From positions 1 to 44,298 of the forward strand of contig JAPLTU010000031.1 in NCBI GenBank assembly GCA_026397965.1: a stretch of DNA of 44,298 nt. The letters run 5' to 3'. Each line of letters opens with the position of its first letter. Position 1 is the stretch's first letter. This DNA comes from Verrucomicrobiota bacterium (GTDB lineage: Bacteria; Verrucomicrobiota; Verrucomicrobiia; Opitutales; UBA953). The notes beneath the pieces were generated by a model. That model searched no databases. It was given only the letters and a program-made list of their open reading frames with translations, and was not told where the DNA came from. The position numbers were made by a program, and so were the translations under genes. Positions 29,932 to 34,995 of this stretch are shown here, piece after piece.

Positions 29932-30462
29932 GTGCGCGAAGATATCCCCGAATGGCTTGGTAAGCCACCTCTCCGTGGCACTGAAAAGTGGGACGCATGG
30001 CTAGCGAAATGGCGCCAGTACGCCCGGGTTGAATTACGCGATACCGCCGCCGATGACCCAGACTTTGATTTTGGCCTACTGACGGTAGACGAAAGGTGGC
30101 GCGTGGCCCTACAAATCGAAGTGCGGTCGCACATCACCGCTGGCCGAGCGGGTGCACCGCCACCCATGGAGCTGGGTAAACGAATCAGTGATCTGCATCA
30201 CGCCTCCGTCGTGGCCTGGATGGTCGGCCGCTCCGTCCTTTCTCCCCTACCCGACGCCCGCGACCAACAAGTCGCCGAGTGGAGTGCCGGGCGCGAAAAC
30301 CCTCGCCGCCGCCGGATCGCGCACGGGATACGCTACGGTTTCATCGCCGGCCTCGGTGGCGATGCCGCCTCCCCCTCTTGGTCGTCGCCAGATTATGTCG
30401 CAGCCTATGAAGCCGCTTGGGCGGCCGGTAATGAGTTGGCCGTCGAAAATGACCCTCGCTGA
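29932..30462 (+). CDS. Hypothetical protein
   Basis: 176 residues from GTG 29932. The sequence is hydrophilic, rich in Trp and charged residues, with no signal peptide or membrane segment. The first half has WLAKWRQYARVEL and a helix-forming stretch around VDERWRVALQIEVRSHI. The last 45 residues (AHGIRYGFIAGLGGDAASPS...YVAAYEAAWAAGNELA) show small residue/aromatic spacing that loosely recalls ribosome modulation factor-like modules, but this is a weak impression. It is followed by rmuC 53 bp downstream. The opposite-strand frame (29898-30167) is shorter and looks like noise. Confidence 0.55.
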   Translation: MREDIPEWLGKPPLRGTEKWDAWLAKWRQYARVELRDTAADDPDFDFGLLTVDERWRVALQIEVRSHITAGRAGAPPPMELGKRISDLHHASVVAWMVGRSVLSPLPDARDQQVAEWSAGRENPRRRRIAHGIRYGFIAGLGGDAASPSWSSPDYVAAYEAAWAAGNELAVENDPR

Positions 30463-31882: not shown

Positions 31883-31958
31883 TGGTGGAGCCGATGAGGT
31901 TCGAACTCACGGCCTCGTCGTTGCGAACGACGCGCTCTACCAACTGAGCTACGGCCCC
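31883..31958 (-). tRNA. tRNA-Ala (anticodon CGC), CCA encoded
   Basis: 76 nt. Acceptor GGGGCCG pairs with CGGCTCC, including the G3-U70 pair that identifies alanine tRNAs. The anticodon loop on the minus strand is TTCGCAA within stem CGTCG/CGACG, giving anticodon CGC, which reads GCG. A73 and CCA are encoded (31883-31886). Confidence 0.96.
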
Positions 31959-32067: not shown

Positions 32068-32727
32068 ATGCGCGTAGCCAAAGAAACTGTCGTCGGTATC
32101 GAATACACCCTGAAAGACGACCAGGGCAACATCATCGATGCCTCCGGCGATCGCGGTCCGATGGAATACCTCCACGGCGCCCAAAATATCATCCCCGGCC
32201 TCGAACAAGGCATCGAAGGCTTGGAAGTCGGCGACACCAAAAATGTCCTCGTCCCGCCCAACCTCGGCTACGGCGAATACAGCGATAAATTACTGCAACG
32301 TGTCCCGATCGAACATTTTGGCGCCAACACGCCGCAGGTCGGCATGCGCTTCCACGCCGAAACCAACCTCGGCATGCGCGTCCTGACGATCAAGCAGATC
32401 GAAGGCACCGAAGTCGTCCTCGACGGCAATCATGCCCTCGCCGGCAAGACGCTGCATTTCGACATCAAAGTCGCTTCTGTCCGCGCGGCTGAGCTGACCG
32501 AACTTTCCCACGGCCATCCTCACCAGTCCGGAGGTTTCTGTGGTGGCGGCGGATGCTGTAGCGGCGAAGCCTCTGAGGGCGGTTGCTGCAGCTCTGGCGA
32601 AAGCTCCGAGGGTGGCTGTTGCTCTTCTGAAGAAGGTGCCTCGGCCAGTTGCTGTGGCTCCGAGCAACCTGCGGCCGAAGCCAAGAGCGGCGGCTGCGGC
32701 AACGGCGGTTGCGGCTGCGGCAACTGA
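32068..32727 (+). CDS. slyD: SlyD-like FKBP-type peptidyl-prolyl isomerase with cysteine-rich tail
   Basis: 219 residues. The FKBP half starts with VVGIEYTLKDDQGNIIDAS and contains PGLEQGIEGLEVGDTKNVLVPPNLGYGEYS; the inserted-in-flap (IF) chaperone domain follows (about 74-125); the last FKBP strand is GKTLHFDIKVASV. This is the SlyD arrangement. Instead of the His-rich tail of E. coli SlyD, residues from about 150 carry HGHPH and then 12 cysteines, mostly as repeated GGCC and SCC units separated by Ser/Glu/Gly, ending GGCGNGGCGCGN. SlyD tails bind nickel and other metals; a Cys-rich one suggests softer metals or zinc. A terminator follows at 32744. Confidence 0.93.
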   Translation: MRVAKETVVGIEYTLKDDQGNIIDASGDRGPMEYLHGAQNIIPGLEQGIEGLEVGDTKNVLVPPNLGYGEYSDKLLQRVPIEHFGANTPQVGMRFHAETNLGMRVLTIKQIEGTEVVLDGNHALAGKTLHFDIKVASVRAAELTELSHGHPHQSGGFCGGGGCCSGEASEGGCCSSGESSEGGCCSSEEGASASCCGSEQPAAEAKSGGCGNGGCGCGN

Positions 32728-32743
32728 ACCCTGACTCATACCA

Positions 32744-32773
32744 AAAAAGGCCGCCAGATTTGGCGGCCTTTTT
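32744..32773. terminator. Bidirectional intrinsic terminator
   Basis: A 13-bp perfect stem AAAAAGGCCGCCA / TGGCGGCCTTTTT around loop GATT. It has an A tract on one side and T tract on the other, so it can end both slyD (plus) and the minus-strand gene at 32795-33337. Confidence 0.95.
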
Positions 32774-32794
32774 ATATACAACCCGGGTTCGCTG

Positions 32795-33337
32795 TTAATT
32801 GGAAACGGTTATTTTTGGTCTCGTCGACGGCGTGGTCGTCGTTCTGTTAGCCTGGTTAAGATAGTTTTTTACAATCAACTCTAAATCCCTATCGAGGTCT
32901 AGGCAGTTCTTAGTCGCATCTAAAATCTTCTGCGTTGTGTTTAAATCGGGCCGCTTAAACGGGGCGACCGACGGCACCTGCAGCGCGGCCAAAATGTCCA
33001 TTTGTGCTTTCAGCTTTTGAACAAGAAAGTAGGCCCCGGGGCCGCTTTGCCAATAGCGATCGCCCCAATAGGACCTGGAGTTCCATCGACTATAAAGTCC
33101 GGCTTCAAAGCTAAGCACGGTCTGCTGGAAAGCAGAAAGCTCTTTGCCGAATTGTTCGAATTCAAGCTGCGCCTCCGCGGTAGCTTTCTCTGGATTAGGA
33201 TAAATCTTGGCATTACACGCGGCGAACTTGGACTGCAGTTCACGCCGTTTTACCGTTAGCCCATCTGACTCAGCCTGTGCGAGTAAGGAAACACTGAACC
33301 CGATGGCGACTAGGCAGCTGATGGCGATTGTTTTCAT
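32795..33337 (-). CDS. Exported protein of unknown function
   Basis: 180 residues from ATG 33337 (MKTIAISCLVAIGFSVSLLAQ-AE), which gives a clean signal peptide; an in-frame ATG at 33373 would bury it. The mature part is mostly helical, with KRRELQSKFAACNAKIYPNPEKATAEAQLEFEQ-type heptads, a Tyr/Trp-rich patch (SRWNSRSYWGDRYWQSGPGAYF, residues about 82-103) and a Thr/Arg-rich C-terminus. No known family is recognised. It lies 56 bp after the Sel1-like gene in the same direction, so the two may share a transcript. Expected location is periplasm or outer envelope. Confidence 0.65.
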   Translation of the reverse strand: MKTIAISCLVAIGFSVSLLAQAESDGLTVKRRELQSKFAACNAKIYPNPEKATAEAQLEFEQFGKELSAFQQTVLSFEAGLYSRWNSRSYWGDRYWQSGPGAYFLVQKLKAQMDILAALQVPSVAPFKRPDLNTTQKILDATKNCLDLDRDLELIVKNYLNQANRTTTTPSTRPKITVSN

Positions 33338-33393
33338 TTCTAATAAGTTGCTTCTGTAAAAATTTTGTGTCAATCTACTAATTAACTACTAGG

Positions 33394-34815
33394 CTACCCC
33401 TCTTCGAGCGAGTTAACCGCATCAAAGTCCGCCAAGGTCTGTGCCGAGGCCCGGAAAACCTTAAGCAAGCGGAGGTAAAACTCTCGAGCCGCTGGAGTTC
33501 GGTATTTTTGTTCAATCGACCTTATTGCCATGGCGTCCGTTTCGTCAGCACCTAAGGAATTGGCCAAGGAGTAGAACACGAAGGCAGCGGATCTATTTTG
33601 GGGTACATGCAGTCCTTTCTCACTGAACAAACCAAGGCATTGCAATCCGTCAGCCTGTCCGCGTCTTGCTGCCTCTATAAAAGAAGCATAGGCTGCCGAC
33701 AACTCGGGCAACCCGGCATGCCTGCCCGTTAGTTGACGCATTCCGATTTCATAACTATTCTTCGCGATCAACCGATCCGGGTATTTGATCGATTCAGCGA
33801 TTTCATCCCGAATCACCGCATCTATGCCTTCTGGGGTAAAAATAGCCTCGTGGGAAGTTCCGGACTGCATCTCTTTCAAGATTTTTTTGGCAAACCATCT
33901 TCCCGTCAGGAGTTCTTTTGGCCCGAAATTTTTCGCTGCCATTTGTTCATAGGCCGTCTCGGAACCCAGTCGCTGGCTGACGATATCAAGGGCGATAGAC
34001 ATGGGCCGGTCTTGCACCAACCCCTGGCCGCCAGCCTCATACATTCTGGCGAGCAAGGCCGCCGCTTTGAAATCTTTCGTTAGGGCTTTTTTCGCGTACC
34101 ACTCGACTGCTGACCTTGCGTCTTGCTTGGTGCCTGCGCCTGTAGCGTAACATTCAGCCAATTCAAGATACGCAGAGCTATCTCCGGCCTTTGCCTTAGC
34201 CATGAGTTGCATAAAGTGACCTTGGGCGGGCTTAGGCGCCCGCTGGGGCGGCTCTCCTGAATAGGTAAGCTTATAAATAATAATGGCTTCGATCTTTCCT
34301 GTCCCGCCGCACCTTGTGTGTGCTATGGCCGTCTGATCCAGGGTATATGTCGGCAGCGGAGCGGTGTACCGATAATAATCATAGGGATAATAACCCGAAT
34401 CGTAATACCTGTATCCCGTATAGGGATTAGTGTAATAAGTGGAATGCGGGCCCGGAATCCGGCCCGTTCCGCTGCACTCGCCGCAGCGTATTTGCTCATG
34501 CACGGTCAACTCCGTCTGATTGCTTTTTATATAATGAAGGAAGGCCGTCTGCGCCTCTTTCGTATCAGGGCAGAAATTACCCCCTTGTGATAGCTCAAAT
34601 TCTCCGTCGGCATTCAGCTTGTAGCTGTTTCTGAACTCCTGCCAAATCTTGGATAATTTAAGCTGGTCCGCCGGATCATAGGCTTTCAAAGCCGCAAGAT
34701 TGACGACCTCGGTTGCGGAGACTGGCGTCATGTCCGTCCGGCTTCCGCTTGTCTTGGCCAGGGCAGGTTCAAATGTCATCATCATAAGCACTAAACATAT
34801 CATTCTTAATGTCAT
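33394..34815 (-). CDS. Exported protein with zinc-finger-like CxGxG motifs and Sel1-like repeats
   Basis: 473 residues from ATG 34815 (MTLRMICLVLMMMTFEPALA-KT), giving a signal peptide. The segment near residue 120 reads CGECSGTGRIPG, a DnaJ-type CxxCxGxG knuckle; the second knuckle, near 180, is TRCGGTGKIE and lacks the first Cys of the usual pair, so the zinc site may be incomplete. Between them is a Tyr-rich linker (YYTNPYTGYRYYDSGYYPYD). From about 215 come Sel1-like helical repeats (SSAYLELAECYATGAGTKQD, FKAAALLARMYEAGGQG, ADGLQCLGLFSEKGLHVPQN). Sel1 repeats mediate protein-protein contacts. The exact job is unknown. Confidence 0.75.
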   Translation of the reverse strand: MTLRMICLVLMMMTFEPALAKTSGSRTDMTPVSATEVVNLAALKAYDPADQLKLSKIWQEFRNSYKLNADGEFELSQGGNFCPDTKEAQTAFLHYIKSNQTELTVHEQIRCGECSGTGRIPGPHSTYYTNPYTGYRYYDSGYYPYDYYRYTAPLPTYTLDQTAIAHTRCGGTGKIEAIIIYKLTYSGEPPQRAPKPAQGHFMQLMAKAKAGDSSAYLELAECYATGAGTKQDARSAVEWYAKKALTKDFKAAALLARMYEAGGQGLVQDRPMSIALDIVSQRLGSETAYEQMAAKNFGPKELLTGRWFAKKILKEMQSGTSHEAIFTPEGIDAVIRDEIAESIKYPDRLIAKNSYEIGMRQLTGRHAGLPELSAAYASFIEAARRGQADGLQCLGLFSEKGLHVPQNRSAAFVFYSLANSLGADETDAMAIRSIEQKYRTPAAREFYLRLLKVFRASAQTLADFDAVNSLEEG

Positions 34816-34995
34816 TATTCGATAATGACTGCGGCGGCCTTGAAGGGTCAAGCCATTCTGTTCTTATAGATTTTATAAAATTACTTGGCCTTTTGTCCTG
34901 TGCTTTCTCCGCCTTTAGCTCGGCCCTTTTCCTTGGTTTGAGCGCGTTGACCTTGCGCTATCCTTACCCGTGGGCTTACCTCATCCGTAAGCCCC

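Follow-up and report, generated by a model that had tools for sequence, protein, structure and literature searches.

The locus raises a simple question: what is the C-terminal tail of a SlyD chaperone for when it carries twelve cysteines and no histidine? In the window (the whole 44,298-nt stretch of DNA analysed here), the open reading frame at 32068–32727 on the forward strand translates to a 219-residue SlyD. Its gene lies on contig C11 of a 2.18-Mb genome in 89 contigs, and a search of that genome returned this one SlyD match only. The first 152 residues (32068–32523, + strand) form a core without cysteine, consisting of an FKBP prolyl-isomerase domain and an insert-in-flap chaperone domain. 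The FKBP fold with its flap insertion is seen by Pfam (FKBP_C, 4.5e-12, with no other Pfam domain found), by AlphaFold2 (core pLDDT mostly above 90) and by Foldseek, which gave T. thermophilus SlyD 4odm as best match (2.5e-18, probability 1.00, 40% identity). Phmmer aligned the core with E. coli SlyD 2k8i at 5e-36, so that by sequence and fold together the E. coli and T. thermophilus SlyDs are the best solved relatives. Together with an NCBIfam match to PRK10737, these searches bear out a sequence-only reading of the same DNA, which had called the protein a SlyD-like isomerase. The PRK10737 match (135.9 bits, E 1.6e-39, over residues 1–187) misses the 174-bit cut-off of that E. coli-type equivalog, and the protein is, as classified from its sequence, SlyD-type and outside the E. 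coli equivalog.

Two features of the core are relevant to function. Residues Y13, D24, L35, I42, Y68 and F131, which we take to be those of the isomerase pocket, are invariant in 36 aligned sequences including the present SlyD and are matched in E. coli SlyD; with its pocket conserved, the protein is predicted to be an isomerase. At the end of the core, residues 148–152 (32509–32523, + strand) read HGHPH in the translation, and by alignment this motif is the equivalent of the HGHXaaH Ni/Zn site described for T. thermophilus SlyD in the accessible text of PMC7055735. H148, G149, H150 and H152 are at least 90% conserved in the same 36 sequences. A tail start at 32520, as had been proposed, would fall inside this conserved motif, and the tail proper begins at 32524.

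The tail (residues 153–219, 32524–32724, + strand) contains 12 Cys, 21 Gly, 13 Ser, 8 Glu and no His, the Gly, Ser and Glu serving as linkers, and AlphaFold2 gives pLDDT values below 50 for residues 159–219, which are thus predicted to be unstructured. The earlier description of a 12-cysteine tail in GGCC repeats holds for the cysteine count and for three GGCC motifs; only 8 of the 12 cysteines are paired, in four CC pairs of which three are GGCC, and four further cysteines stand outside them. The GGCC-Ser-Glu units and the SCC pair that follows them occupy 32548–32655 (+ strand), with GGCC matches at 32548, 32578 and 32611, and the genus alignment shows that the number of units differs between relatives. 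The tail ends in a terminal element, GGCGNGGCGCGN (32689–32724, + strand), whose pattern GGCGxxGCGC[SG] is retained by almost every tail in the genus; the exceptions are L044, which has none of it apart from CGCSH, and L050, which has GNCG. This element resembles the end of the E. coli SlyD tail (GKGNGG...) in the phmmer alignment to 2kfw, which is shown to residue 192 of 196. At the position of the tail's first cysteine (Cys157, 32536–32538) the present species, alone among the aligned genus tails, has phenylalanine, and it has a cysteine where its nearest kin have Gly164 (32557–32559), the total staying at 12.

By composition, the tail stands well apart from its surroundings. Seven neighbouring proteins contain 25 cysteines in 2591 residues, and at that frequency 12 or more cysteines in 67 residues would be expected with P ~2e-12. 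When the tail itself was shuffled, three GGCC motifs were reached in 0.03% of shuffles and four CC pairs in 10%, so that the CC pairing alone is unremarkable. Searching the genome of origin for the GGCC pattern gave five matches, three of them in slyD. The other two were rejected as further tailed proteins, the fourth (on contig C43) because it falls in an antisense frame of 44 codons with a longer ORF on the other strand, the fifth (on C3) because the other strand carries an ORF of 656 codons. The reversed pattern used as a control gave seven matches, which means that the pattern is weak and that other cysteine arrays could be missed by it.

Conservation is a stronger test of the tail than chance composition. 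The genus relatives are mostly Opitutae/Opitutales metagenome bins, several of them lake-named; two bins (L077 and L087) carry, apparently in error, the names Akkermansia muciniphila and Polynucleobacter meluiroseus. Complete tails came from 50 of 55 genus genomes, no SlyD match being present in G033, G035, G044, G053 and G054 (completeness 63–87%). The comparison across relatives that had been suggested came out in favour of a real feature, with 8–14 Cys and 0–2 His in 49 of the 50 tails. Overall, genus tails span 15–78 residues and 4–14 Cys, with a variable number of GGCC-Ser-Glu units. The shortest, 15 residues with 4 Cys, belongs to G040, a 99% complete genome without an HMA match, which indicates that the long cysteine array is not indispensable. 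Selenocysteine in that tail was considered and rejected: the likeliest reading of its in-frame TGA is a normal stop codon that closes a short tail with CGCSH at its end. The tail lies at a largely syntenic locus and is orthologous throughout the genus.

Variable unit number in a Gly/Ser-rich, low-complexity sequence could also be explained by slippage of a GC-rich repeat, in which case the tail would be an expansion without function. We therefore looked at codons inside close groups of genomes, with Cys codons scored apart from other tail codons. In a 15-genome group whose alignment is nearly ungapped, Cys codons are close to saturation at synonymous sites (pS 0.78) and show only 14 nonsynonymous differences in 3355 site comparisons (pN 0.004; other tail codons, 0.037), all of which fit one C-to-G change in L018 (11 Cys). 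The tail dN/dS in this group is 0.056, not above the 0.075 of the core. The four remaining groups do have tail values (0.13–0.18) above core values (0.02–0.11), as slippage would have it; their Cys codons show no nonsynonymous change in groups C and D, four in A, and 57 in group E, whose alignment is gappy. As pair counts are non-independent and the aligner favours placing C over C, the ungapped group is the most trustworthy. There, Cys codons swap freely between TGC and TGT and the residue almost never changes, a pattern of synonymous variation shared by the well-aligned groups, from which we conclude that the tail cysteines are under purifying selection. Tandem Repeats Finder, moreover, detected nothing across the GGCC units, its sole array being one of 15 bp x 2.4 at 32686–32721, and the GGCC pattern recurs in a second family (f11; see below). 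Neutral slippage is thus rejected on the codon evidence and on the Tandem Repeats Finder result; it is largely refuted and we give it very little credence. The codon pattern points instead to selection that preserves the cysteine tail as an array of ligands rich in thiols.

How the tail relates to other SlyD tails could be seen within the order, where 163 genomes have a SlyD match and tails were read from 126 (127 SlyDs), taking the best match per genome except in G227, a family f11 genome with two SlyDs (L166 and L185), both with short 4-Cys tails. Two genomes were dropped before tails were counted: G022, whose contig ends within the tail, and G248, whose tail is masked. Among sister genera in the family, g2 tails are His-rich (8–23 His), g5 tails are mixed, and g4 tails are rich in Cys, with Asp and in some cases His. 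In family f11 a GGCC array appears with a different linker (GGCCNDEP); in f14, for which 27 genomes were selected, tails are either short, of the form CC...CGC, or lacking; f8, f19, f20 and the few f22 members read have short tails, His tails or no tails; and the G017 tail combines 12 Cys with 6 His. Cys-dominated tails are common in the order, which shows a His-to-Cys continuum. The view that known SlyD tails are His-rich was overstated in this respect, and also with regard to the E. coli tail (13 His, 6 Cys) and the H. pylori tail (5 His, 5 Cys), going by the part of PMC7840056 that was available. On a core-only tree of the 127 SlyDs, the Cys-rich label needs at least 12 changes on starred branches alone, a soft count given that the borders between tail classes are arbitrary. 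Cys-rich tails were likely gained in parallel within the order, and the f11 array apparently arose independently. Outside the order, 14 of 20 SlyD-like proteins (selected from 19 phylum genomes) have no tail cysteine and six have 1–5; short Cys tails are also found in Treponema vincentii and a deltaproteobacterial bin.

The E. coli-type role of SlyD, nickel delivery to [NiFe]-hydrogenase via HypA and HypB, was considered in an order sample of 275 genomes at least 80% complete, 48 of them in the family, with E. coli positive as control. Neither [NiFe]-hydrogenase nor HypA was found in any of the 48 family genomes, the genome of origin included; the enzyme and the partner HypA that a hydrogenase-maturation nickel metallochaperone would work with are thus not among the genes detected. 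On this gene content, and not on any correlation with tails, the E. coli-type role is unlikely in the genus. Tails with at least three Cys do occur in 93 of 111 SlyDs from hydrogenase-negative genomes versus none of 16 hydrogenase-positive genomes (92 of 108 versus none of 14 in a smaller set, before five tails were added), an anti-association that looks strong in the raw counts but comes down to five independent pairs on supported branches and has neither power nor significance once kinship is allowed for. A genome was called positive here if it had a match over the Pfam cut-off; 18 of 22 such genomes have a SlyD match, and 16 tails were counted, G099 and G163 being left out. Weak, split hydrogenase matches (E ~1e-14 to 1e-19; for example in G136, G197, G215, G241, G116 and G172) may represent hydrogenase-like complexes.

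Nickel held by the tail could be destined for urease instead. Thiolates bind nickel too, Ni(II) included, and the genome of origin carries genes for urease gamma, alpha, UreE, UreF, UreG and UreD in one stretch. In addition, H. pylori SlyD has been found in complex with UreA and HypB (PMC7840056, accessible portion). Urease alpha, however, is over cut-off in just 5 of 30 sampled genus genomes, again including that of origin, and a G3E GTPase in 9 of 55 (UreG-like in eight, with the P-loop seen). The five urease-positive genomes have tails of 10–12 Cys and the urease-negative ones have 8–14 in 23 of 24 cases and 4 in the last, so tails do not follow the enzyme; furthermore, the urease cluster has its own UreE, and HypA was found in none of the family genomes, as noted. 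We regard a nickel store feeding urease as improbable. A COG0523-type zinc chaperone was likewise rejected as a client, given that G3E proteins are present in nine genomes only and no CxCC motif was seen in the frames examined. Nickel superoxide dismutase gave no match in the 55 genomes, and the control sequences gave none either.

The gene's surroundings do not point to any particular metal. A tRNA-Ala(CGC) gene (31883–31958, - strand, by ARAGORN) lies upstream and is divergent from slyD, and it was found ~110–146 bp upstream in 10 of 12 relatives scanned (not in L109 or L116). Downstream, an intrinsic terminator read directly from the sequence (32744–32774, + strand) has an 8-bp GC stem GGCCGCCA/TGGCGGCC, a 4-nt loop and a T run; it is absent from the list of a consensus scanner. 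With the divergent tRNA gene on one side and the terminator on the other, slyD is probably transcribed alone. Across 51 relatives' loci, some shortened by contig ends, the commonest neighbours besides the tRNA gene are the small unknown ORF at 29932–30462 (44 loci), a secretin gene (40, by Pfam Secretin), rmuC (39) and an osmC-like gene (39, by Pfam). No metal gene adjoining slyD was found in these loci, and visual inspection of the aligned upstream regions revealed no recognisable metal operator. Two further neighbours are rarely shared: a small protein at 32795–33373 (-), without a Pfam match and present in 3 of the 51 loci, weakly matches FapA amyloid chaperone models (E 0.0009, far below cut-off), and a Sel1-repeat protein (Pfam) at 33394–34851 (-), matched in 1 of 51, has in its first half, by eye, a DnaJ-like zinc motif pattern, CGECSGTG...CGGTGK.

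We then considered what a thiol-rich tail could mean in these cells. The glutathione synthetase domain was found in none of 55 genus genomes (controls positive in 9 of 14), and HMA domains are over cut-off in nine of the 55, the genome of origin not among them. With no glutathione synthetase found and HMA domains rare, protein thiols could matter more. HMA domains are present in 8 of 10 genus genomes with nine or fewer tail Cys versus 1 of 40 with ten or more, as if HMA domain and Cys tail stood in for each other as soft-metal handlers; this association was noticed post hoc, amounts to about one evolutionary contrast and has no power (three independent pairs on supported branches). Four HMA loci were inspected. 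Two encode HMA fused to a MauE-type membrane domain (L268 991–1704 (-) and L271 290–994 (-), both genus members with shorter, 8–9 Cys SlyD tails), and in the other two an HMA protein lies beside a small membrane-protein-like ORF, of which the one scanned had no Pfam match.

The same gene content would suit a tail whose main role is that of a thiol redox switch or a reserve of disulfides, in which oxidation would form CC disulfides, release any zinc bound there and cross-link SlyD or alter its holdase activity, in a manner like that of the unrelated Hsp33. In its favour are the vicinal CC pairs of the flexible tail, the negative search for glutathione synthetase in the genus, an OsmC-like gene that lies nearby downstream in 39 of 51 loci, and the finding that H. 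pylori SlyD, once purified, multimerises in a tail-dependent manner when conditions are non-reducing (PMC7840056, from the text accessible). On the other hand, osmC is on the opposite strand and is not co-transcribed with slyD, and sister-genus tails grade into mixed His/Cys/Asp compositions, which fit metal ligands better. A primarily redox role is in our view unlikely, if less so than the urease route.

We favour, with some confidence, a tail that acts as a thiolate buffer or metallochaperone tail for soft metals, Zn or Cu(I), on SlyD; soft-metal binding is indicated by a tail that is selected, disordered, thiol-rich and attached to a SlyD core. Such a SlyD would be a prolyl isomerase and holdase with a disordered C-terminal tail that is an almost pure array of Cys thiolates, whose CC pairs and terminal CxC motifs would bind soft or thiophilic ions. 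The likeliest are Zn(II), favoured by its abundance in cells, and Cu(I), favoured by its chemistry. The bound metal would constitute a buffer, or a store for hand-over, next to the chaperone domain, and the metal or oxidation state could modulate folding activity. We infer metal binding itself, the identity of the metal and its coupling to activity. The link between metal state and folding activity, raised in the sequence-only reading as a prediction, is in part established knowledge, since nickel reversibly inhibits the E. coli SlyD isomerase (PMC7055735, available text), and the proposal here extends that effect.

A bolder version is more speculative, and we would not bet on it. It would recast SlyD, in small-genomed Opitutales with no glutathione synthetase or hydrogenase found and with HMA rare, as a thiolate buffer for metal and redox state that is tethered to a chaperone, in which the Zn/Cu(I) load or disulfide state of a metallothionein-like tail directly sets isomerase and holdase activity, the swap from imidazole to thiol having happened in parallel in a second family and the tail being longest where HMA is missing. 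The metal tail of SlyD is commonly attributed to nickel supply for hydrogenase. Either way, the lineage keeps and selects a SlyD tail with no hydrogenase route found, sulfur replacing imidazole ligands. The order offers a natural series on one core (His-rich, mixed, Cys-only and no tail), which makes testable what a SlyD tail does once nickel delivery is removed, and whether chaperones also serve to buffer soft metals in bacteria where no glutathione synthetase is detected. Tail cysteines, tail variability and metal control of isomerase activity are already known for SlyD; no description of a His-free Cys tail was found in the literature searched, subscription papers being mostly outside its coverage.

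Among known systems, metallothioneins are small, stand-alone, disordered proteins rich in cysteine, with CC and CxC motifs. The present tail shares the disorder, the cysteines and both motifs, and differs in being the C-terminal third of a 219-residue isomerase/chaperone. Hsp33 is a redox-regulated chaperone with its own fold and a C-terminal Zn-Cys4 switch; FKBP_C is the only domain that Pfam finds in the present protein, and any resemblance to Hsp33 would be in working only. H. pylori HspA, a GroES with a His/Cys tail, also joins a general chaperone to a C-terminal tail of metal ligands (PMC7840056, accessible part), yet it is an unrelated chaperone and sequesters nickel. Among SlyDs proper, tails range from 2 to 50 residues, as far as the available text of PMC7055735 goes, compared with 67 here. 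T. thermophilus SlyD (4odm, 3cgm) has the closest solved fold and the HGHxH site but no extended Cys/His tail (same source). H. pylori SlyD (2kr7) has a tail that contains cysteine, mixed with histidine (PMC7840056, as available), and binds ~2.4 Ni or 3.3 Zn (the accessible text of PMC7840056 and PMC7055735); it differs in having only five Cys and in belonging to an organism with HypA/HypB and hydrogenase. E. coli SlyD (2k8i, 2kfw) comes nearest in overall design, sharing the FKBP and insert-in-flap core, the HGHxH site and a C-terminal tail that is disordered, contains CC motifs and finishes in a Gly-rich stretch. The difference lies in its tail chemistry and its task, which are 13 His with 6 Cys and delivery of nickel to hydrogenase (PMC7840056 and PMC7055735, both as accessible), where the present tail sets 12 Cys and no His.
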